From Tannerellaceae bacterium (GTDB lineage: Bacteria; Bacteroidota; Bacteroidia; Bacteroidales; Tannerellaceae), in the NCBI GenBank assembly GCA_021201295.1, contig JAJQFE010000063.1, forward strand, positions 1 to 64,000: a stretch of 64,000 bases of DNA. The letters run 5' to 3'. This document shows positions 16,104 through 57,828 of this stretch, in pieces (position 1 is the first letter of the stretch; each line of letters starts with the position of its first letter). The translations under genes were made by a program, and so were the position numbers. The notes below the pieces were generated by a model that did not search any database, had not been told where the DNA came from, and saw only the letters and a list, made by a program, of their open reading frames with translations.

Positions 16104-17258
16104 ATGGAAAAAGTAATTTACAATTTAATTTTTAACAGGAAGAAGCAGTTGAATGCAGAAGGAAAAGCCCTGATTCAGGTGGAAGCGTATTTGAATAAGC
16201 AGAAAAAGTATTTTTCAACCAAGGTCTATGTGAAGCCTTGCCAGTGGGATAAAAAAAGAAGGCTTATCAAAGCACATCCGAATATGGAGGCTTTAAACCA
16301 GTATTTGCAGGATTATATAGCAGAGCTGGAACGGCTGGAGTTGAATCTGTTACAAAGTGGAAAGGCATTAACTTTAGAAAGTCTAAAAGAAAGGACCGTG
16401 TCTGAAAATGAATCTTTTACTTCGTTTATGAAACAGGAAATCGATAAATCCAATCTGAAATCATCTACCCTGAAAAATCATGCTTCTACCTGGAATTTGC
16501 TGTATCAGTTCAGGCCGGTAGTCGGTTTTGAGGATATTAATTTCAATTTTTTATGTACCTTTGAGGATTATTTGCTGAAGAACGATTATCACCGGAATAC
16601 GATTGCCAAGCATATGAAACACCTGAAGCGGTATGTAAACCTGGCGATTAATATGGATCTGTTTGAGATGCAGAAGTATCCTTTCCGGAAATATAAGATC
16701 CGGTATATGGAAACAAAGCGCACCCATCTCACCCCGGAAGAATTAAATTTACTGGAGAACCTGAATCTGGGAAGATGGAGGACCTTGTGCCGGGCCTTGG
16801 ATATGTTTTTGTTCAGTTGTTACACCGGACTGCGTTTTTCGGATATTGTGAGCATTACGAATGATAATTTCCTGATGATAGATGATAAGTTGTGGTTGAT
16901 CTATTCTTTCGTTAAGACGGATGTGCACGTCCGTTTACCTCTTTTCCTGTTATTTGACGGAAAATCTATTTCTATTTATGAACGTTATAAAAATAATCCC
17001 CATACTTTATTTAATGCTTCTCCAGATTCGAATTCCAATGTAAATAAGCAACTTCTCCGGATCTGCCAGATGGTAGGCCTGGAGAAACGGATCTCTTTTC
17101 ATACGGCTCGCCATACAAATGCCACTTTATTACTTTATAATGGCGCTAACATTACCACTGTACAGAAACTGTTAGGACATAAAAGCGTAAGAACCACTGA
17201 GATTTATAGCAATATTATGGATATGACAATTATCCGTGACCTGGAAAAGATCCGGTAA
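16104..17258 (+). CDS. Tyrosine recombinase / site-specific integrase
   Basis: An arm-binding N-terminal beta domain (IYNLIFNRKKQLNAEGKALI), a SAM-like core-binding domain and a catalytic domain. Catalytic residues visible: Arg in CYTGLRFSDI, the HxxR box in HTARHTNATLLL, and the Tyr nucleophile in TTEIYSN. I chose ATG 16104 (MEKVIYNL) because family members begin about here. ATG at 16083 and 16002 are also in frame. No element ends, cargo genes or inverted repeats were seen nearby. It may therefore be a remnant or an invertase acting elsewhere, and its target is unknown. Confidence 0.88.
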   Translation: MEKVIYNLIFNRKKQLNAEGKALIQVEAYLNKQKKYFSTKVYVKPCQWDKKRRLIKAHPNMEALNQYLQDYIAELERLELNLLQSGKALTLESLKERTVSENESFTSFMKQEIDKSNLKSSTLKNHASTWNLLYQFRPVVGFEDINFNFLCTFEDYLLKNDYHRNTIAKHMKHLKRYVNLAINMDLFEMQKYPFRKYKIRYMETKRTHLTPEELNLLENLNLGRWRTLCRALDMFLFSCYTGLRFSDIVSITNDNFLMIDDKLWLIYSFVKTDVHVRLPLFLLFDGKSISIYERYKNNPHTLFNASPDSNSNVNKQLLRICQMVGLEKRISFHTARHTNATLLLYNGANITTVQKLLGHKSVRTTEIYSNIMDMTIIRDLEKIR

Positions 17259-43806: not shown

Positions 43807-45290
43807 TTATTTGAACCAGTAAGTAAGCATTAATTTACTCTCGGAAGTGGAAGAGTAGACATTCTCATAGTATTTATAGTAGGTTCTCCGGACATAACTG
43901 CTGAAATTACCTGTCAGATACAGGTTTTTCCTGAGGCGGTAATCCATGCGGAAACTGGTATGGTATAGCTGGGCACGGGAACGGTCTCCCTGTGCATTCA
44001 GAGTTTTAGGATTAAAATTCTCCCAGTCCATTTGTTCAGGATAGTCTTTCCAGGTAAACATATAATAGGTTTGCGAATGGATTCCTATCTGTATTTTCCG
44101 GTTAAAAGAAGAATAGTTGAAACTGAATTTAGTACTCAATCCATTAGCCAGATTATAATTTCGTTCATCCACCCGGTAATAATCACTGAGAGCCGCTCCC
44201 AAAAGAATGCCATTTAAATGAAAAGCGCCCTCTATATACCCTCTTTTAAAGGTCTCATTCCTGTAGAATAGTCCACCACCGAAAGAGGCGGGTGTACAGA
44301 ACTTATAGGGAGTTTTCAGGGAAATATCCGAGATGGTGTCCGAGTCATAATAATCAAAATGTTGGTATAATCCGGTACTCAGGGTTTGTTTCTCTTTTTC
44401 CAGTAATTCTTTGCCTGCAATCCGTCCGATAATGGATAATTCTCCTAAAACCGGTTGGGAAGCCTGTATATTCAGGTTGGTTTGAATAGAAAAATAATCA
44501 TAGGGTGTTCCTCTGTCCGCTTCAAACTTGTCACCATATTCAATTCGTACTTCCGATCCGAAACCGATCCCCTGGTCAAATATATCGTCCTGTAATTCCA
44601 GGATCCGGATGCCGGCTGAAACTTCTACACTGACCGGAGGCAAACCAAACTACCTGCCTGAAGTAGGACGTTTTCTCCAGGCATCTCCGTTAATGATACG
44701 GGTGAGTCCCCGCATCGGTGAGGTAAGAAAAGCTATCGTTTCCCGGCCCAGCCGTTCCTTTCCGGAAGTCCGGTCATCAAGGATCAGGTCAGATGCCCTG
44801 TAAAAAACTTCTCCCAATGCCATTCCTCCTAATGGAGTTGCAATAATATCATTGGTAGAGGGATATTCACATTCCATAAACAGCTCCCACATGGTACTTC
44901 CCGCCAGGGAGAACAGTCCGGATTGCCAGTAATTATATCCGTTGGAGCGGGCGGCATTATAGTATAAACTTCCATGGTAAGGATGAAGGAACATATTGGT
45001 ACCCATCCGGTCATTATCCCAGATAAATCCATGACGGAAATTTTCTTTGATGGTATGCCCGTTAATATAGGCAAAATCTCCTTTTTGAATAAAGCGGTCG
45101 AAAATCCACACACCCATATTGATCCCAAAAACCGTAGTTCCTGCCTGAAATCCTTTTTAGAAGAAGAGTAATGATGAATATCTGCGGAGTCTGGTGGTAG
45201 AATAAAAAAGAACCGTCTATCCTGAGTATGTTGTCCGGAAGAGTAAAAAGAGAATACCAGAAACAGGAGAATAATAGTAGTTTGTTTCAT
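43807..45290 (-). pseudogene. DUF3943 outer-membrane-like protein, with a frameshift and an in-frame TAG
   Basis: Signal peptide MKQTTIILLFLVFSFYSSGQ, then GINMGVWIFDRFIQKGDFAY, HGFIWDNDRMGTNMFLHPYH and GSLYYNAARSNGYNYWQSGL, all diagnostic for DUF3943. A C-terminal beta-barrel-like region ends in LTYWFK. The frame breaks near 45147; an extra T gives KKDFQAGTTVFGINMGV. A TAG at 44650-44652 interrupts RPTSGR-x-FGLPPVSVEVSAG without change of frame. The role is unknown; the family is thought to be outer-membrane located. Confidence 0.75.
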
Positions 45291-46011: not shown

Positions 46012-47019
46012 ATGATGGAGAATAGAAATTGTTCTTACAATTCAGTACCGTTAATCAAAGCCATACGCAGGAAGCCTATTCGTCCGGATATTTCTCTCCG
46101 GACATTAACAGGTATCCTGGAGAGGGAAATAAAAAGTCTGTCCCGGGAACGGACAGCCCGGGCGTATCGGTCAGCAATGAGTAGTTTTCTGAATTTTTAT
46201 GGAAAAGAAGACTTAGCATTAAGTCAGTTAAATGGAAGGCTTTTAGTAGAATATGAACAATATTTACTGGTCGGTTCCCGGAGCCTGAACACCATTTCTT
46301 TTTATATGCGTAATTTACGTGCTATTTATAATAAAGGGATTAGTCGGGGATTATTCACCCCTGTAGAGGAGGAATTATTCCGGCTGGTTTATACCGGCAA
46401 CCACCCGACCCGGGAAAGAGCGATTCCGGCTAAAGATATTTGGCAACTGGAATCATGGATAAGAAAAAGAGAGCTTGGTGCACAGGCCGTACCGGATCCG
46501 CATCTTTTTTCCGCCTATTGTTTTCTGTTCTGTTTCTATGCCCGTGGTATGTCTTATGTAGATATGGCCTATTTAAAGAAAACCAATATCCGGGATGGCC
46601 TGATTTGTTATCGACGCAGGAAAACAGGACTGTTCCTGAAGGTGAAATTGATCCAGGAACTACAGAAAATCATTGATCTTGTTGCTCCCTATGTAAAAGA
46701 CTCCCCGTATGTTTTTCCTATCATTCTCCGAAAAGAAGGGAAGGAAAGATTACAATATGAAAGCGGATTGAGGTTGCAGAATAAGCGTTTGAAAGAGGTT
46801 GCCATTCAGGCAGGACTGAGATGTTCCCTTTCTACACATGTGGCGCGCCATAGCTGGGCTACCATAGCAAAGAAAGAACATATCCCTTTGCCGGTCATCA
46901 GTGAAAGCCTGGGACATGCATCGCTCAAAACAACTACGATCTATCTGGCATCTTTTGACAATAACCTGCTAGATAAGGCAAATCTAAAAGTGGTAAGAGC
47001 TATTAAAAGAGCTGGTTAA
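46012..47019 (+). CDS. Tyrosine recombinase, probable DNA invertase of the adjacent switch
   Basis: A 335-residue recombinase with a SAM-like N-terminal domain (RTARAYRSAMSSFLNFYGKE) and a catalytic domain. The catalytic Arg lies in CFYARGMSYVDMAYL, the beta-hairpin Lys in YRRRKTG, the HxxR box in HVARHSWATIAKKE, and the Tyr in SLKTTTIYLASF. It ends 58 bp before the left arm (47078) of a perfect 29-bp inverted repeat that encloses an AraC gene and an outward promoter. Bacteroidetes recombinases of this size next to such repeats act as invertases for surface-structure phase variation. The role here is inferred from position. Confidence 0.9.
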   Translation: MMENRNCSYNSVPLIKAIRRKPIRPDISLRTLTGILEREIKSLSRERTARAYRSAMSSFLNFYGKEDLALSQLNGRLLVEYEQYLLVGSRSLNTISFYMRNLRAIYNKGISRGLFTPVEEELFRLVYTGNHPTRERAIPAKDIWQLESWIRKRELGAQAVPDPHLFSAYCFLFCFYARGMSYVDMAYLKKTNIRDGLICYRRRKTGLFLKVKLIQELQKIIDLVAPYVKDSPYVFPIILRKEGKERLQYESGLRLQNKRLKEVAIQAGLRCSLSTHVARHSWATIAKKEHIPLPVISESLGHASLKTTTIYLASFDNNLLDKANLKVVRAIKRAG

Positions 47020-47077
47020 GAAACTGGTAGGATGATAAAAAACTCTATATTTGTAACCTTTGGAAAAATCAATAATC

Positions 47078-47106
47078 ATTCTGTCACTTCGCAAGTGACA
47101 GAACCA
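47078..47106. repeat. Left inverted repeat of invertible segment
   Basis: 29 bp, exact reverse complement of 48090-48118. The arm is itself a near-palindrome: TTCTGTCACTT and AAGTGACAGAA around a central three-base CGC. This is the usual layout of a tyrosine recombinase crossover site. Confidence 0.88.
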
Positions 47107-47132
47107 TGAAAGAAAACTCTATTTTCCTGCTG

Positions 47133-47140
47133 CAAATATA
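47133..47140 (-). promoter_or_regulatory. Outward promoter box inside the invertible segment
   Basis: TATATTTG on the minus strand is a perfect TAnnTTTG -7 box, reading out through the left repeat towards the recombinase 3' end. No good -33 TTTG lies at the expected distance, so an activator may be needed. After inversion the box would lie at 48056-48063 on the plus strand, about 130 bp upstream of the fimbrial operon. Confidence 0.6.
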
Positions 47141-47184
47141 CTGGGTAAAAAATAATTCCAGCTTCTGAAAAAACGTATATTTTT

Positions 47185-48026
47185 TCAATATTTACGACCC
47201 TTTCTGATCTGACTCGGAGGCATCCCTATATGTTTTTTACAAAAATCGGTCATATGGGAAAGTGTTGCAAATCCGCATTTGTCTGCGATTACCGCAAGAG
47301 GCAGGTTAGAAGAAATAATTTCCCGCAAAACTTTTTCCCTTTTTTTCCGATCATCCATCTTCCGGGAGAGGTCCCAAATACCAGGTTGAATCGGTTCTCA
47401 AAACTTTTCAGGCTCATATTTGCCGCACTTGCCAGTTCCTGCACTGTTTTTACATGCATATAATTCGTGTAGATAAATTTTGCAAATGAACTTTCTTTTC
47501 TTAAGACAGGATAAAATAATCCAGCCAGTTCCTGTGGTGTGTAACAGGATTTTAAGAGATAAAATAATTCATAAATCTTGATTCGCCGGAAAGCAGCACT
47601 TACCTGGCATTCCTCAAACAGGATATGCAGATGTCGGCAGTATTCCCAAATCAAGGGTGCTATTTCTACCGGATTAAAAGAGGTATTCCAGGCACTTTTT
47701 TTGTTTGCCAGTCCAGAGGGTAAGAAATATTCACATAACGCCAGACAATCCGGGAGATAAAATCCCGTTAAATGGCTTCCCTGTTCAATCGTTAAAGTAC
47801 ATACGGATCCTATGGGCAGAAAAAAGAGCTGTCCATTTTGTATAAATTCTTTTTTCCCGTTCGCAAAAACGAGTGAAAAAGACCCCTTTTTTACGATCCA
47901 GAGCACATGCTCAGTTGGTTCAAAAGAGACCATTTCTCCTTTATACAGGTAAAGGCTTTCAATAGTGGCTGCTTCTTCCCTGAAAAGCTCTGGTAATTCC
48001 ATAGAATGATAGTTTTCTCTATACAT
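47185..48026 (-). CDS. AraC-family regulator inside the invertible segment, frameshifted
   Basis: A cupin-like sensor (ESLYLYKGEMVSFEPTEHVL, GSFSLVFANGKKEF) is followed by an AraC HTH domain (TVQELASAANMSLKSFENRF). The raw ORF stops at 47289. One more A in the run at 47340-47346 continues it through REKVLREIISSNLPLAVIAD and CGFATLSHMTDFCKKHIGMP to TGA at 47185. The upstream frame to 48185 crosses the right repeat and is not family-like, so ATG 48026 is preferred. The whole gene lies between the inverted repeats. It may activate the outward promoter that is inverted together with it. Confidence 0.85.
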
Positions 48027-48040
48027 GTTTTTCTTTTTAT

Positions 48041-48070
48041 TAAAGGTTAGCTCTTTCATTTTCAGACAAA
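48041..48070 (-). promoter_or_regulatory. Possible promoter of the invertible AraC gene
   Basis: On the minus strand TTTG (48067-48070) precedes TAACCTTTA (48041-48049) by 17 bp, close to but not a perfect Bacteroidetes promoter. It lies inside the inverted repeats, so the AraC gene would be expressed in both orientations. Confidence 0.35.
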
Positions 48071-48089
48071 TGTTTTTCCCGGGAAAAAC

Positions 48090-48118
48090 TGGTTCTGTCA
48101 CTTGCGAAGTGACAGAAT
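48090..48118. repeat. Right inverted repeat of invertible segment
   Basis: 29 bp, perfect reverse complement of 47078-47106, lying 72 bp before the first fimbrial-operon gene. The segment between the arms is 983 bp. Confidence 0.88.
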
Positions 48119-48189: not shown

Positions 48190-48774
48190 ATGAACTTACG
48201 AAAGACAATAATCCTTGGGGTTTCCCTGTTGCTCCTATCTCCTGTATATAGTCAGGAGATGATCCAACTGGCACCTGTTACGCAAGTTGGATTGAAAGCG
48301 AATCTGCTTGGTTATGCAACCACCACATTAAGTGTAGGGGCTGAAATAAAACTGGCTCCCCGCTATACACTGGATTTGTCTCTTACCTATAATCCATGGT
48401 CCTTTACGGAAGAAAAAATGAAGCATATCCTCTTTCAGCCGGAACTACGGTATTGGTTTTGTGAAGCGTTTCACGGAGCCTTTGCCGGGTTACATGCCCA
48501 TGCCGGTTATTATAATGTAGGAGGAATGGGATTGTCGGATTATATAAAAGAACACCGTTTTGAAGGCTGGCTGGCAGGAGCAGGAATTTCTTACGGATAC
48601 CAGTGGATCCTTTCGGAACGCATTTCCCTGGAAGCCACTATCGGAGTGGGGTTTGCCTATATGGACTACGAAATATTTCCTTGTGAAAAATGTGGAGCTA
48701 AAATCAAAGATAAAGCTTCTACCTATTTCGGACCAACCCGGGCGGGGATCTCACTAATCTATATATTAAAATAA
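48190..48774 (+). CDS. DUF3575 outer-membrane-like protein, first gene of the fimbrial operon
   Basis: About 194 residues from ATG 48190 (MNLRKTIILGVSLLLLSPVY signal peptide). The body (GLKANLLGYATTTLSVGAEI, FQPELRYWFCEAFHGAFAGL, then alternating strands ending ISLIYILK) is a small beta-barrel DUF3575 protein. DUF3575 genes normally open fimbrial operons of the Mfa type in Bacteroidales. A frame from 48160 adds 10 non-signal-like residues and was not used. No promoter box lies between it and the right inverted repeat, so its transcription probably comes from the invertible segment. Confidence 0.88.
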   Translation: MNLRKTIILGVSLLLLSPVYSQEMIQLAPVTQVGLKANLLGYATTTLSVGAEIKLAPRYTLDLSLTYNPWSFTEEKMKHILFQPELRYWFCEAFHGAFAGLHAHAGYYNVGGMGLSDYIKEHRFEGWLAGAGISYGYQWILSERISLEATIGVGFAYMDYEIFPCEKCGAKIKDKASTYFGPTRAGISLIYILK

Positions 48775-48793: not shown

Positions 48794-50326
48794 ATGAAAA
48801 ACAATATATACGCACCGGCTGCTTTCAGGAAAAATTATGTGTCTCGTATCCAGGTCTATACAACTGTTCTTGCCGTGTTTTTATTTGCTGGATTTCTATC
48901 TGCCCAGCCGCAGGTTGATAACCGTTTCAGAAATGCCTGTTTAGACAGAAATGGAGAACAGATGCAGGTGAAATTTGATCTTCCCGTCCATGGAAAAAGT
49001 GTAGGGAAAATGGAAAGTGTTTTTTTAATTCCTCAATTACAGAACGGGGACTCCATTCTTTTCCTGCCTTATGTCCGCCTGAATGGGAAAAGTCGCTGCA
49101 AAGCGCTCTGTAGAAATGAAGCCACTCAACGGGTAGGAGTAGCGGGTACACAGGATATTTATACCGAAGAAGAGATCATCTCCACCCGTTATCAGCAACT
49201 AATTCCTTATCAGACAGAAGTCGCTTTTGCTCCCTGGATGACATCTGCCCGTTTAGTGATACGGGAAGAGATCTACGGATGTGCTGGTGCAAAGAAAATC
49301 CAGCTATCGACCCTTATCCATTCCCCGGTAGAAGAAATGCCGGTTTCCGCTCTTCATTACACAACGAAACAGATATTAGACGGAATCCGTCCGCAGGTTT
49401 CCTACATCACTCCTCAGATAGAAAATAAACAACGTTCAGAAACCGGAAGTGCCTATTTGGATTTTCCCCAGGGACAATCAGTTATATTGCCCGATTACCG
49501 CAGGAACCGTACGGAGTTAAACAAGATCCGTGAGACATTGGAAAAGACCCGGAAAGATACGAACGTAGAGATACAGGAGATTGTCATTACCGGGTTTGCC
49601 TCTCCTGAAGGCAGCTATGCGGCGAATGAACGTCTCTCCTGGGACCGTGCCCATGCAGTGAAAAACTATTTGCAGCGGGTAAGTAATATTTCCTCCCGTT
49701 ACTTTGAAGTACAACCCGGAGGGGAAGACTGGGAAACCCTGCGGGAATTGGTAGAAGACAGCCATCTGCCGGATAGCCGGCAAATCCTGGCTATCATCGA
49801 TAGTCCGGAAGATTATGACCGGAAAGAGGTACGTTTGCGGAATATGGGAATGACCTATGATATGCTTCTGTCTGATATTTATCCTGCCCTTCGCCGGGTG
49901 GACTACCGGATTGAATACTGGGTAAAAGATTTCACAGTCCAGGAATCCCGGGATATGTTGATCCGTAATCCGGGTCATCTGAGTACCTACGAGTTGTATC
50001 GTGTGGCAGGTAACTATACCAAAGAATCTGATAAGTGGAATGAGATCATTGAACTGACGGTGCGTCTTCATCCCGAAGATGATGTGGTTAACATTAATGC
50101 CGCAGGAGTCCTGCTGAACCGGGGAGACCTGGTTGCGGCAAAGATCTGTCTGGATAAGGTAGCAGATTTACCGGCAGCCTGGAATAATATGGGAGTATAC
50201 TATCTCTATCAGGGTGATCTGTTGAAAGCTACTGAATATTTTACAAAAGCATTAGTCATGGGAGTGGATGAGGCAATGTACAATCTGGATATTCGTCGTC
50301 AGATGGAATTATATAAAGAAGAGTAG
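48794..50326 (+). CDS. DUF3868 / OmpA-like fimbrial operon protein
   Basis: A 510-residue exported protein. An N-terminal DUF3868 part (LVIREEIYGCAGAKKIQLST) is followed by an OmpA-like peptidoglycan-binding domain (VITGFASPEGSYAANERLSW, DRAHAVKNYL) and C-terminal TPR-like helices (NAAGVLLNRGDLVAAKICLD, NNMGVYYLYQGDLLKATEYF). The protein probably links the fimbrial assembly to the cell wall. It follows DUF3575 by 19 bp, the conserved order of Mfa-type loci. It ends in TAG. Confidence 0.88.
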   Translation: MKNNIYAPAAFRKNYVSRIQVYTTVLAVFLFAGFLSAQPQVDNRFRNACLDRNGEQMQVKFDLPVHGKSVGKMESVFLIPQLQNGDSILFLPYVRLNGKSRCKALCRNEATQRVGVAGTQDIYTEEEIISTRYQQLIPYQTEVAFAPWMTSARLVIREEIYGCAGAKKIQLSTLIHSPVEEMPVSALHYTTKQILDGIRPQVSYITPQIENKQRSETGSAYLDFPQGQSVILPDYRRNRTELNKIRETLEKTRKDTNVEIQEIVITGFASPEGSYAANERLSWDRAHAVKNYLQRVSNISSRYFEVQPGGEDWETLRELVEDSHLPDSRQILAIIDSPEDYDRKEVRLRNMGMTYDMLLSDIYPALRRVDYRIEYWVKDFTVQESRDMLIRNPGHLSTYELYRVAGNYTKESDKWNEIIELTVRLHPEDDVVNINAAGVLLNRGDLVAAKICLDKVADLPAAWNNMGVYYLYQGDLLKATEYFTKALVMGVDEAMYNLDIRRQMELYKEE

Positions 50327-50478
50327 TGCGTAGATGGTTCGTATAAACACAGCTTCAAAAGATCTGCCAACTACCCCATCTAGGGACTACTCACGGAAAT
50401 TCTACATTAACCGACTCATATACATACACTTTTACATAACTATACAGCTAACTAATTATTAATTAAAATTTGGGATTT

Positions 50479-51863
50479 ATGAAATTTAAAAGTTTTTATG
50501 TAGCTGCTTTAGCAGCCTCTGTCCTCGTTTCCTGTAATAAAGATGAGGTGTCAGATTATCCTGGTGGAAATGGTGAAGCCAGTGAGGAAACAGTCATGAA
50601 AATCGGTATTACCCAGGAAACAGCAACCACCCGTGCTTTTCCTTCTGGTGAAGAAGTGGCTACTACTCCGGAAAAAGAAATTAAAACTGCCCGAATCCTC
50701 GTCTTTGACGGAGATGGTAAACTGGAACATGACATGGATCTGACGGTAACCGCAGGGGTACTGGAAGAACCGGTATTTAAGACCACAACCGGTAAAAAAC
50801 AATCTATGCCCTGGTAAATCTGCTGGCAAAATCAGACTTACTGGCAAGTTTGGAACCCGGTAGTGCTATCGGACAGGTGCAGAAAGTGATCAGCTCAATT
50901 GAAGCCATGGCAGATGTAGCATCTTCGGCTTCCAGTGGCACAGGTTACTTTATGACAAACTTCGATAAGAACCATGTGGTTACTACTATCCAAAAAGGAG
51001 TTACCGAAAAAGAAGTACGGGAAGATGGTGAAAATGAAATTACAGTTCCCGTAGGTCGTGCCTTTGCGAAAGTGAACCTTCGCCTGGGAGACGATGTGGA
51101 ATACCTTCAGGGTAAACTGGAAGACATTACCTATCGTGTACGTAACAATCCAAATGCTATGTTCACCGTGCAGAAATATGAAGCATCTTATGGATACCTG
51201 CTGACTCCTTATTTTGATCTTTCACTGACTACAGTAGTAGAAAAAGCGGATTACTATTTTGACAACGGCGCTCCGGTACCACCGGCAACAGAACCTACAT
51301 TTACAGCCATCAGAACTGCTACCTATGCCATGGAAAACAGCCATGGAACTCCTAAATATCACCAATCTACCTATTTGTCATTAAAAGGTACATTCATGCC
51401 GGACAATATGTTTGATAGTTACGGAGAGTTAGTGGGACCAGCCACCAAAGGTGACGACTTTTACCGTATTCGTAGTATTGTTGATGATGAATACACCAGC
51501 AAAATCTATAATACGGCAGCTATCGAACCTTCTGAGTTAGCAAGAGCGCTAGAAGGCTTCAATGCAGATCCGGAAGATAATACTACTTTCGAACTGGTGA
51601 AATACGAAGATGGTATCTGCTATTATGGTATCTGGATAGAAGATTAGGATTATTATGAAAAAGGTGACCTGGTAAATACATATACAGTAAGACGTAACTA
51701 CTACTACTATGCAGTGATCAATCAGGTATCAGGGCCGGGTTCTAATAATGAAGATGGTGTGTTGCCAACAGATCCGGAAGAGCCGATTAAAGAATCTACC
51801 TGGATCAAGGCAATTATTGAAGTACAGCCCTGGGTAGGCAAAAACCTGAACTCTGTTATCTAA
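50479..51863 (+). pseudogene. Mfa1/FimA-type major fimbrillin, frameshifted and with an in-frame TAG
   Basis: A lipoprotein precursor (MKFKSFYVAALAASVLVSC). It begins with TRAFPSGEEVATTPEKEIKT and ARILVFDGDGKLEHDMDL, typical of fimbrillins (Mfa-like). One missing A at about 50792-50797 breaks the frame; with it TTTGKK reads into TIYALVNLLAKSDLLASLEP. TAG at 51645-51647 interrupts YYGIWIED-x-DYYEKGDLVNTY. The remaining strand-exchange tail continues to TAA at 51861-51863 and ends in VQPWVGKNLNSVI. It is probably the main shaft subunit, since a strong hairpin follows it. Confidence 0.82.
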
Positions 51864-51926: not shown

Positions 51927-51956
51927 TTATCTACTAATTCTCCTATGTCCCGAAAT

Positions 51957-52877
51957 ATGAAAAAGTTGGAAATCCTGATATATTCTTTTTTGTTATTCTT
52001 TATGGCCACCTCTTGCCTGCATGATGACCTGTCTGATTGTCATGAACAGATCTGGTTGAAAATGAGCTATACGCTGAATGCTGATTATATCGATAAATTC
52101 AGTCAATCAGTGGAGGAGGTGACGGTGTTGATTTACGATAGAGAGGATCAGTTTTTCAAAACAGAAGAAGCGAAAGTCAGTGACTTGTTGAATAAGAATT
52201 CCATGCCCCTGCATCTTCCGGCCGGAGAGTATACCGCAGTTGTTTGGGGAAATGCTCTTGCAGATGACTATGAAATAACCGGAACAGAATCTTTATCTAC
52301 CCTGCGTCTAAAACTACTGACACAGGGAAACCAGCCCTTACATATGGAACTGGCAGAACTTTTCCACGGAATAGTCACCTTTGAAGTAACAACGGAAAAG
52401 GGACAGGAGATAACTGTGGATGTAGTGAAAAATACCAACCATGTCCGTATTGTACTGAAAGGTATCTATGACACCCGTACCGCTCCTGGAAGTGACTATG
52501 CTGTGCACATCACAGGAAGTAACGGAGTCTACGGGTATGATAATAATAAGGAACCGGATCAATCCGCATTGCAATATCTACCTGACTATAATCAGCAAAG
52601 CCAGTCACTCTCCGTCTGGGCTGATTTCACCGTGTTACGCCTGATGCGGGATGATGACATGAGAATCCAGGTTTCCGAAAACGGAAGCAGTAAAATCTAT
52701 GAATTGCTGACCGAACGCCTGTTCCGTTCAGCGTATGTAACCACTGATGAAGACCTGGACCGCTATGATAATTTTACCCTGACTTACACTTTCTATGAAG
52801 AATTAGATGAATTTTACCTCACTTCCCTTAAAGTGGAAGACTGGGAAATGAAAATCGACCCGGGGATCAATATCTGA
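51957..52877 (+). CDS. FimB/Mfa2-family minor fimbrial anchor lipoprotein
   Basis: About 306 residues with a lipobox (LLFFMATSCLHDDLSDCHEQ). The CLHDDLSDC start followed by VTVLIYDREDQFF, LPAGEYTAVVWGN and a mid FHGIVTFEV block is typical of FimB/Mfa2 anchors that terminate the shaft in the outer membrane. It is intact. An in-frame start 12 bp earlier exists, but the signal peptide fits 51957. Confidence 0.88.
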   Translation: MKKLEILIYSFLLFFMATSCLHDDLSDCHEQIWLKMSYTLNADYIDKFSQSVEEVTVLIYDREDQFFKTEEAKVSDLLNKNSMPLHLPAGEYTAVVWGNALADDYEITGTESLSTLRLKLLTQGNQPLHMELAELFHGIVTFEVTTEKGQEITVDVVKNTNHVRIVLKGIYDTRTAPGSDYAVHITGSNGVYGYDNNKEPDQSALQYLPDYNQQSQSLSVWADFTVLRLMRDDDMRIQVSENGSSKIYELLTERLFRSAYVTTDEDLDRYDNFTLTYTFYEELDEFYLTSLKVEDWEMKIDPGINI

Positions 52878-52926: not shown

Positions 52927-55900
52927 ATGAAAAAAAGAAACGAACCTACTATATCTTATCTGCATATCCTGTCTGGATGGTGTGGCTTGTTCCTGCTGTT
53001 CCTACTGGCAGCCTGTCTGGATGACCGTTATGATTCAACCGTAAATCCGGAAGTCCCCGAAGACAGGGTAGCTGTTAATTTTACTACCCAGGTTTCCGGA
53101 AAACAGGACACATCAACCCGTTCTTTATCCATGGATGGCGAGTATCGTCCGTCACAAATCGACCTGTTGGTATTTAAGATAGATCCCCAGACGGGTGAAG
53201 AAACCTATTTCTATCATACCCATGGTTCAGATATTCACGATCTGGAAGATCAGGGAGGAAAGAATTTATATGGGTTCAGTGCACAGTTACGTCTCCGGGA
53301 AAATGAAGAAAAACACCGGATTGCTATTTTTGCCAACCTCAGGAAAGAGATCACCACACTGGCCCAAACGTTGCCGGAAGGAATTTCTAAAGAAGAAACA
53401 GAAGAAAAAGCACTATTCGAAGCTACACAGAAATGGACAGATGAACGACAGGATTATCTGCCGATGTGGGGAGAGTCCGACCCCGTGGAAGTGACGATGG
53501 ATATGTCAGATATAAACGGAACTATCCGGATGGTCCGTGCTGTTGCCAAAGTGGATGTCGGTATGAAAATAAATGAAAACGAAGGCTGTCTGGCGGCAGG
53601 CGGATTAGACAATTTTATTATTAAACAGGTGGTGGTCCGGAATGCCATGGACTATGGCCGTGTAGTACTGGAAGAGGGAACGATAAACGGAGATGTGGCA
53701 ACTGCTATCTCGCTGCCGGAACAGATGGGCAGAAAACGTCTGGCTTATCTGCCGGATGCGGACGGAAGATCTGTTTTTGGGAAAATCTATCTGGCGGAAT
53801 CCGCCAATAAAGCAGGTCAGACGCTGGATGAAAAAACCTGTGTGCTGATCGAAGGATACTATTCGGAAGATCCGGATCTGCCAAATACAACAACCCCAGG
53901 CTGGTATCGTATAGATTTCTATGACCAGGAAGATCAGGAAGACCTGGATGTACTTCGTAATTATCAATATTAGATCAATATTACCCGGGTAGATGGTCCC
54001 GGCTATGATTCGGAAGAAAAAGCATATAATTCTAAAGCAATGAACATCACTACGGAAATCCTGGCCTGGGAAGAGTGGGATATGGGAGATATTACCTTCG
54101 ACGGACAATACCAGTTAGTCGTGAATACGGATAGCTTTTTCTTTTATAATAACGGACGGGCACAGGAGTTAAAGATATATACGGATCATCCGTCCGGATG
54201 GTATATTGAATCCAGTGAAAAACCGGATTGGTTAGTGATTAGTCCTCTCTCAGGAAATAATCCGGATGAAAGTTTTGAGGTAACCGTTTCAGCAGAACAA
54301 ATGACTACTCCTCTGGCAGACCGGGACGGCTACTTTTATATTCGTTCCGGACGCATGAAAAAGAGAATGAAAGTATATCAATCCATGGAAGCAGATCTTT
54401 ATATTGAAGTAACACCGACAACCCTTATTTTCCGGAAAAGTGCTACCAGCCCGAAAACAGTTATTGTCACGAAAGAACCGGCTGATCAACCCGTCTATTT
54501 TTCGTCAGCCAGGCTGATCCAATGGTTAACCACCGGAGGTTTCCCGACAGACGGACAGACCGATGTAACAGCATATAGTTTTTAGCCAACAGTCAACACC
54601 TCCGGAAATCTGCTGACCAATACAGTCACTGTCTTTATTACAGATCTAACCGGAAAAACGGCTTCCCGGTCTATCTCAGTCATACAGTTAGCAACCGATA
54701 TAAAATATGAAGTGGAATTTCAGTATGACAAGTATCCATCGACTGCACAAAGTGACCTGTGGATGAGGGTTTCTGCGGAATTGGCATGGCAGATCCTGTC
54801 AGAGAATATTACACCTGCCGGTATTCTTACTCCCGAAATGTTTGATGTACAACCGGCCGAAGATAACCGGACCTACCGGTTCGCACTCAAACAGAATCCA
54901 ACGTTTGCTGAACGGGAGGTCTATCTGTATGTCACCTCACCGGAACCGGACTTCGAACCGTTGACCGTTACCATCACCCAGGATTATATCCGCCCTGAAT
55001 TAACGGTTACTGATCCAGCCGAAACAAGTAAGATGATTGATTTTGGGATAGTAGAGGAAAATAATGTAACTTCGCTGCCTGTCTCTCTGCATGTGAATTC
55101 AGACTGGAAATTCTCCACAGGTACAGACTATGATAAAGTGGTTGCTTCTTCTGATATTCCGGCAGGCACGGATCAGATAGGCGGTATGCCGAATGAACCG
55201 GTAGATGCGACTGTTTATTTTACACCGTTTGTCTATCAGCCTGTCACAGGAACTCCTGCGGAGGGTACTATCGTAAGTACGACAGCCACCTTTACGACCG
55301 CCAACCATCTGAGTGCGAATGCCTTCTCACAGAGTGTAACTTTTCAGACCATAGTTCCTCCATTCTTTGATCACACCAGTGTGAAAATTAAAAAGGAATC
55401 GGGTGATACGGAAGCTATCCCCCTAACTGAAAAGCTGGACAGAACGTCCCATAATTACTATATGGAAGCGACCTCCAATATAGCCTGGAGCGGCCAGACT
55501 TCTTTGAATGTGACCCGTACTCATACAAAAACAGCCTGGGGGACTCATTCGGAAGTTTTACAGGTGGCTGCAAACACTGAATGGGAAGAACGGGATATCA
55601 CTTTCTTCTATACCTATGACGGAGAACAAAAAGAAGTGGCTACCTATACCCAGAAAAGTTATCATTTTGACCGGATTGAAATGGAATATGATGAAACATA
55701 TCTGAAAGGATTTAACAGGACCTATACATTTACTGTCTACGGATCTATCCCTAATTCAAGAGTCAGAATAAAAACTGATCTGGATACTGAACAAATCTTT
55801 ACAGCTACAGAGGAATCTTCATCTGTGGAATTAAGGGTTCCTCAGAACAGGACCGGAGATCTGAGAGAGGTCACTTTCAGTTATTCGCTGGATAACGGAA

Positions 55901-56439
55901 CCACCTGGAAAGAATGGGGTGTAATGACTCAGAATAAAGGAAATAAAAGACTTTCTACCGGGGTTTACGTAGCCATCCAGGATATAAATGCAGGAGACTA
56001 TATTCCGGAAGCCACCTATAATCATTATACCCGTACCACTATGTCATGGAATGAAGCCATGGGTATAGATGAGAAATTCAATACGGAAGCCTTTAACGGT
56101 TCAGATGCGGACGGTAATTATGTAGCCACTCAGCAGACGGGTTGCGCCGCGTATGCAGAAGCCCGGGGTCCTGCAGGTACATGGCGTTTGCCGACAGCAG
56201 CAGAATTGGAAGAAATACATTACTGGCGGTCTGCAATAGATATATGGGATGGTGTTGGATTACCGATTCTCTCTACCTACTGGAGCCAGGATGAAGTAGA
56301 GGGAGATGCCGGAAGAGCACATTCGTTGCATTATTCTGTTAACCAGGCCTATACTCCTACTACAACCTCTAAGACTGCTAAAGCAACCGTACGATGTGTA
56401 AGTATAGATAATACCCACGAAGAAGAAATACAGCCATAA
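52927..56439 (+). pseudogene. Large fimbrial tip-type lipoprotein with BACON repeats, two in-frame TAGs
   Basis: One frame of about 1,170 codons with TAG at 53971-53973 and 54583-54585, and no frame change. The N-terminus is a lipoprotein (LLFLLAACLDD) with a fimbrillin domain (SQIDLLVFKIDPQTGEETYF, MVRAVAKVDVGM). Several BACON-like Ig modules follow (GWYIESSEKPDWLVISPLSG; SVIQLATDIKYEVEFQYD). A C-terminal DUF1566/FISUMP-like domain has GTWRLPTAAELEEIHYWRSA and TYWSQDEVEG. Such mosaic proteins cap Mfa-type fimbriae and may bind host or glycan ligands. A terminator follows at 56466-56500. Confidence 0.8.
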
Positions 56440-56792: not shown

Positions 56793-57828
56793 ATGGAGCA
56801 CAATCTATATAACACGGTAATTAAACCTTTCTATAAACTCCATGCCCGGCTGAAATATCATCAATTAGATGTTTCTATCTGTTTTCAGGAAGATTTTACT
56901 TCCACCACCTGGATCGGGGCTGTTTTACGGAATCATTTTTTTGTTTGCCTGTGAGCAGGTAAAGATAACAGGAGCGATTCGTCTCCGGCAGGTATTGGAG
57001 GAATTCCTTCCGGTCTCTAACCAGCATTCCTTGTATAATGAATGGAAAGGCGGTTATCCCCGGGGCTATGGTTTGTTTGTCCATATATCCGGACCCGAAA
57101 AAGGGAACCAGTGTTTCAAAAAAGGGGAACAGTTATCTTTTTCTTTGGTCATATATGGACATTGCGATGAGTACGGAGAGGCATTTTTACAGGCACTAAC
57201 AGGTATGTGCCGGAATGGATTGAATAAAGGAACCATTCCTTTGCATTTGGCATGTGTGAGTGAACGTCAGGAAGACGGCTCAGTTCAGATGCTATATCAT
57301 GAAGACGGCGGAGCCTTTTTTCAGTTGCGGAATCCCATTACACTGGGCCGGTATATTCATAGTAAAATGACCCCTGAAGAACAAACTTTATCTATTCATT
57401 TTGATACACCGGTAGATCTGTATGGGGGGCGTAAAAAAATATACAAACCCGGTTATGTCTATCGGGATCATCAATTTCCGGGTTTTTATCAATTAGTGTT
57501 ATCCGCTGCTAACCGGATTTCCAAATTGACCGCATTATATGCCTGTCCGGACATGTGGAGTTTTACGAGTGAGGCAGAAAAACTGATCGACCGCTTTGCA
57601 GAGCCGGCTGGTGCCATGCTACTCTCCTCTGCACAAATAAAACGGGTGGATCTTCATGCTCCTTCTCAATGGGATAAAAAGAACCCGGTACGGTTAAGTG
57701 GCTATACCGGAAGTGTGGAATTTATGGGAAACTATAACTATTATCTACCGCTATTATTGTTTGCGGCTGATATGGGAGTGGGAAATCATACGACTTATGG
57801 ATTCGGAAAGTTCCGGATCACTACATAA
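56793..57828 (+). CDS. cas6: Cas6-type pre-crRNA endoribonuclease, frameshifted
   Basis: A RAMP protein that cuts the CRISPR transcript into guides. It starts MEHNLYNTVIKPFYKLHARL. The seven-T run at 56936-56942 is one base too long; with six T, WIGAVLRNH reads into FLFACEQVKITGAIRLRQVL. The C-terminus has the typical strand GYTGSVEFMGNYNYYLPLLL and glycine-rich loop GVGNHTTYGFGKFRI. Corrected length is about 344 residues. It is first in the operon; the repeat it cuts lies outside the window. Confidence 0.88.

Follow-up and report, generated by a model that had tools for sequence, protein, structure and literature searches.

Our results suggest that a cassette of about 1 kb, lying between a recombinase gene and a fimbrial operon in the window (the whole stretch of 64 kb analysed here), is an inverton, a segment that carries both an araC-family gene and an outward promoter and is flipped by the tyrosine recombinase encoded at 46012-47019. 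We consider it likely that this segment works as a coupled switch. Two of the features by which invertons are recognized were found, namely inverted repeats bounding an outward promoter and a recombinase with its catalytic residues. The original prediction was right that the regulator moves together with the promoter, and this arrangement recurs at other loci, which it had not mentioned: about 26 cassettes in which inverted sites enclose araC, from at least eight genera, were found in the neighbourhoods examined. Their hosts are the genus of the window (G000, the genome of the window, to G003), G005, G012, G022, G023, G250, G411 and a Butyricimonas (L017). The sites are spaced 1.0-2.0 kb apart, and araC keeps the same internal place and orientation throughout, including at loci with non-fimbrial targets; most targets are fimbrial, while in G022 and G411 they are mostly other large surface proteins. 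Plasmid records gave no match.

Recombination sites and recombinases

A repeat search bore out the perfect 29-bp inverted repeats that had been predicted at 47078-47106 (plus strand) and 48090-48118 (minus strand). Their arms are separated by 983 nt and form the longest inverted repeat within the 9 kb searched. Each arm is also a dyad in itself, a trait absent from the earlier description: the left one reads TTCTGTCACTT-CGC-AAGTGACAGAA (dyad core at 47079-47103), the right one has the core GCG, the reverse complement of the left core, and the arms are asymmetric only at this triplet in the centre and at a few flanking bases. The general dyad of 25 nt, TTCTGTCACTT-NNN-AAGTGACAGAA, has no further copy anywhere in the 64-kb window, and 100 shuffled windows gave no match to it. 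Among relatives the site drifts, with ACACTT..AAGTGC in Butyricimonas, ..AAGAGAC in G022 and an unrelated sequence in G005.

We scanned 125 genomes of the same family with the pattern GTCACTTNNNAAGTGAC, without preselecting loci and taking pairs 250-1250 bp apart. Sites were present in six genomes, and the triplet cores were reverse-complementary in all 13 intact pairs, while varying from locus to locus, with several different cores per genome; further pairs came from the neighbourhoods examined. If the triplet is the crossover region it must match within a pair, and matching within pairs together with variation between loci is then expected; the ends of a transposon should be alike among copies, and such variation between loci would not be expected of them. 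This bears on the possibility that the cassette is not an inversion switch but a small mobile element, bounded by terminal inverted repeats and carrying araC. Repeat-bounded cassettes of similar size do recur within one genome (five in G022), as such an element might, but besides the behaviour of the cores we found no transposase ORF inside the cassette, the promoter arrangement described below spans both sides of the boundary in a sharply defined way, the flanking genes are co-oriented targets, and one cassette is flipped. We thus regard a mobile element as very improbable.

The inverton reading requires a recombinase, and the predicted gene was confirmed to the left of the cassette. Its ORF (46012-47019, plus strand, 335 aa, PF00589 and PF13102) ends 58 bp before the left arm, is intact, and has the catalytic residues R..K..HxxR..H..Y readable in its translation. 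Paralogues with 41-58% identity to it adjoin cassettes with like sites. Judging from these sequences, this enzyme is probably the invertase that flips the 1-kb cassette. A more distant second tyrosine recombinase is encoded in the window at 16413-17234 (PF00589, PF13102).

In the genome of the window, dyads adjoin recombinase paralogues on contigs C12, C56, C71 and C70/C22. Those on C12 and C56 bound araC cassettes of about 1 kb, those on C71 a short cassette of 250 bp, and the pair of C70/C22 is divided between two contigs. A lone degenerate dyad lies by the 3' end of an araC gene at the end of contig C68 (L023), next to a cytochrome-like gene and without a recombinase; this is possibly a solo cassette. 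Short cassettes of 250-350 bp with the same or similar dyads and adjoining recombinases were seen at L021 (on C71, where the recombinase is decayed), L055, L016 and L072, and are probably plain promoter switches. In G023, six sister fimbrial loci (L067, L068, L077, L081, L082, L084) share this recombinase group; where both sites were recognized, the cassettes measure about 650-680 bp, lack araC and carry other inward boxes. Conversely, the cassettes of G022 and G250 have no recombinase alongside, which implies action in trans. G022 contains five stand-alone araC invertons, mostly before large non-fimbrial surface proteins (L168, L169, L170, L171, L176), and one recombinase may serve all five in trans.

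Promoters, orientation and a probable coupled switch

The operon that had been predicted to the right of the cassette is present, with a likely first ATG at 48190. All its genes are on the plus strand: a DUF3575 gene, which is the first gene and the target of the switch (48190-48774, PF12099, 1.5e-66), a DUF3868/OmpA/TPR gene (48794-50326, PF12984 and PF00691), a fimbrillin-like gene split by a frameshift into two adjoining ORFs in different frames (50470-51647), an Mfa2-type anchor (51945-52877, PF08842, 1.1e-46), and one or more probable tip or accessory subunit genes in several frames (52927-56439), whose only match is a sub-threshold one to Lcl_C, in the last piece. The fimbrillin-like assignment follows from position and N-terminal sequence, the second piece having no Pfam match, and the tip gene is probably also split by a frameshift. 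PF08842, PF12099 and PF12984 together identify a type V (FimA/Mfa) pilus. Just 3' of the operon lies a gene for a protein with a CRISPR Cas6 domain (56869-57828, PF10040).

The predicted outward -7 box, TATATTTG, is inside the cassette at 47133-47140 on the minus strand, aimed away from the fimbriae, and would face them once inverted. A second TATATTTG, previously overlooked, lies outside the cassette at 47046-47053 on the plus strand and is aimed inward; this fixed box is predicted to read araC only after inversion. For 21 cassettes in the OFF orientation, we counted the Bacteroides-type -7 box, TAnnTTTG, in fixed windows about their sites and compared the counts with shuffles. The box outside the cassette on the non-target side, aimed in, is present in 20 of the 21 (shuffle mean 1.5, maximum 6), and the box inside on the same side, aimed out and 26-43 bp from the site, in 17 (shuffle mean 1.0, maximum 4). 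A -7 box precedes araC within the cassette only once in 21, the same holds for the target outside the cassette, and the remaining control windows gave 0-2 of 21. G411 retains both boxes and G250 the internal one only. The two-promoter layout recurs at more than 20 surface-protein loci of gut Bacteroidales.

A search for TAnnTTTG between 48119 and 48189 found no plus-strand box, and a sigma-70 scan of the region gave sites no more frequent than in shuffles, as expected if the promoters use TAnnTTTG. No clear canonical -33 TTTG was seen at either the fixed or the internal promoter, which is compatible with dependence of these promoters on an activator. A candidate operator is the non-coding DNA that separates the stop codon of araC from the internal -7 box (47141-47184, minus strand): its mean pairwise identity among six window-type cassettes is 71%, against 46-49% for other non-coding DNA and 67% for araC coding sequence.

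These features suggest the following mechanism. The recombinase would exchange strands at the two dyad sites, and the segment between them, which carries araC and, behind its 3' end, the outward promoter, would flip. In the OFF state araC would lack a promoter to itself, the fixed one at 47046 would read antisense through it, the internal promoter would fire toward the recombinase, and the fimbrial operon would be left without a promoter. In the ON state the order would be recombinase, fixed promoter, araC, internal promoter and fimbriae; araC would be transcribed from the fixed promoter, and the internal promoter would face DUF3575 and drive the operon, probably activated by AraC. We infer this activation from the constant place of araC immediately upstream, from the putative operator and from the lack of a -33 element; the activity of the recombinase and the expression states are likewise predictions from sequence. 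The original suggestion of a constant gene dosage with a changing target is probably beside the point: since araC lacks a conserved promoter of its own and the fixed promoter would read it only after inversion, expression of araC itself should switch. We found no terminator on the strand read by the fixed promoter in the OFF orientation, and some read-through to the operon might occur in this state.

Another account is an ordinary invertible promoter: flipping the internal promoter would be enough to switch the fimbriae, AraC would be a mere passenger or have its targets elsewhere, and the fixed promoter would have some other use. The same recombinase group flanks segments without araC, of 250-350 bp (C71, L016, L055, L072) and 430-740 bp (G023), so that site and enzyme work without the regulator, and the araC of the window is frameshifted. 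Yet about 26 loci from at least eight genera, some with non-fimbrial targets and no adjacent recombinase, keep the placement of araC, the operator-like stretch and the fixed inward promoter, and araC has been under purifying selection as judged by codon position (see below). This account seems to us unlikely.

Comparison supports well the claim of an invertible cassette caught in the OFF orientation, given the paired cores, a flipped homologue and a contig break in a relative. The proposed search of sister genomes for the flipped layout was rewarded by one homologous cassette, L069 in G023. Directly readable there are the recombinase, the fixed boxes and a site, then an intact araC pointing the same way, the internal box GACATTTG, which lies 27 bp before the second site and is one base off TAnnTTTG, this second site and DUF3575; an in silico reversal of the window leads to this order too. 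Overall, 25 of 26 cassettes are OFF like the window, with the start of araC beside the target, and one is ON, counting among the 25 some that were read across contig breaks and two whose target is not visible (on C3 of G022 and C7 of G001). Such an excess means that switching must be rare, biased or selected. The inverted junction is absent from all assembled contigs of G000. In G003, contig C55 stops exactly at the last base, on the inner side, of an arm of 28 bp, and contig C23 begins with the same 55 nt, an exact overlap made up of 27 nt of left flank and the arm. A de Bruijn assembly broken at this arm implies that the unique left flank and arm had more than one continuation, as with both orientations in the sample; with no contig found to hold the inverted junction, this sign is indirect. 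Two other breaks were rejected as inversion breaks: that of C70/C22, because C70 ends in a 55-nt sequence common to C68, and that of C114/C119, because it falls in the middle of a cassette.

Relation to known invertible systems

Precedents exist for invertible promoters, for inversions that carry genes and for phase-variable regulators. Among known switches of Bacteroidales, most flip nothing but a promoter. The Hin H-segment of Salmonella is an invertible segment of about 1 kb with a whole gene and an outward promoter, in which the carried gene is a serine recombinase. Our cassette resembles this segment in size and content, but its gene encodes a transcription factor and its recombinase is of the tyrosine type and lies outside; Hin is located inside its segment (PMC5903667). 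The closest parallels within Bacteroidales include the Tsr/Fin-type tyrosine-recombinase invertible promoters of Bacteroides fragilis, such as BF2766/tsr19 with IVp-I and IVp-II, where IVp-I, beside the recombinase, is mostly OFF in culture and ON in about 1% of the inoculum (PMC4747536). Both systems have an adjoining tyrosine recombinase, inverted repeats, a promoter turned toward a surface-structure operon and a bias to OFF, but the B. fragilis unit is described as a promoter, whereas here a regulator gene lies inside and a second, fixed promoter is aimed in. In Clostridioides difficile, pdcB/pdcC and Cdi6 are regulators or signalling genes behind invertible promoters (PMC11868660, PMC5903667). 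There too the flip alters expression of a regulator, as predicted here, but the genes are outside the flipped DNA, while here the regulator is inside and the target promoter flips along. Type V (FimA/Mfa) pili of Bacteroidota are under inverton control (PMC12632263, PMC11892184), and our DUF3575/DUF3868/fimbrillin/Mfa2 operon similarly lies downstream of a putative inverton.

Among the papers searched, which cover part of the field, none was found to describe a Bacteroidales inverton that bears a transcription factor along with its probable target promoter. What flips here appears to be a regulatory module complete in itself, with regulator and target promoter inside and a fixed promoter outside, reused before different surface proteins. 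If so, ON would require two coupled events arising from a single recombination, which would make OFF tight and could allow AraC feedback or gating by a signal. PhaseFinder is described as limited to intergenic invertible regions (PMC11868660), and surveys with this limit could miss gene-carrying modules. The two-promoter arrangement provides a concrete search rule and testable predictions.

The reading frame of araC

The araC gene had been described as complete, but this did not hold. An uninterrupted gene would span from about 48002 to about 47185 (minus strand), and the frame breaks at an A7 run (T7 on the plus strand) at 47340-47346, as seen in the cassette alignment and the list of runs. 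The assembled ORF has an ExsA_N-like N-terminus and no Pfam match to HTH_18, hence not the C-terminal double HTH that defines the AraC/XylS family; in the alignment the HTH region is legible in a shifted frame, and HTH_18 is matched in the intact full-length homologues L069, L062 and L170. Besides the window, frameshifted araC genes occur at L018, L019, L056, L057, L058 and L053. All six aligned copies of the window type in G000 and G003 are interrupted, with every indel in a run of at least six (6-7), and a seventh (C23) changes frame in the HTH part. Cassettes of the other genomes have open araC genes.

One might then see the cassette as a locked relic, a former inverton fixed in OFF whose araC is decaying by frameshift. 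These interruptions, the missing inverted junction and the predominance of one orientation would fit, but in the window the two arms agree at all 29 bp and the ORF of the recombinase is unbroken. Moreover, differences among the six araC copies at codon positions 1, 2 and 3 amount to 0.25, 0.20 and 0.50, an excess at third positions implying that the protein was under purifying selection until recently. Together with the restriction of indels to such runs, this suggests that the loss of araC is recent or reversible, and we judge a relic quite improbable.

A working inverton could also have two layers in the lineage of the window, inversion coupling araC with an AraC-dependent promoter and homopolymer slippage acting as a second, independent ON/OFF layer; we hold this to be conceivable, if rather doubtful. 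Slippage-based switching, a relaxation of selection and the assembly itself are each possible sources of the frameshifts. Recurring 55-nt overlaps of contig ends suggest that these are de Bruijn assemblies of short reads, where errors in run length are uncommon. Genome-wide counts of frameshifts with a codon-usage HMM were tried twice and abandoned, as they either could not tell operon junctions apart from frameshifts or overlooked known cases, and a comparison of ORF lengths was only suggestive. As assembled, further genes of the window are broken between frames: the fimbrillin and tip-like genes, and a DUF3943 gene at 43807-45290.
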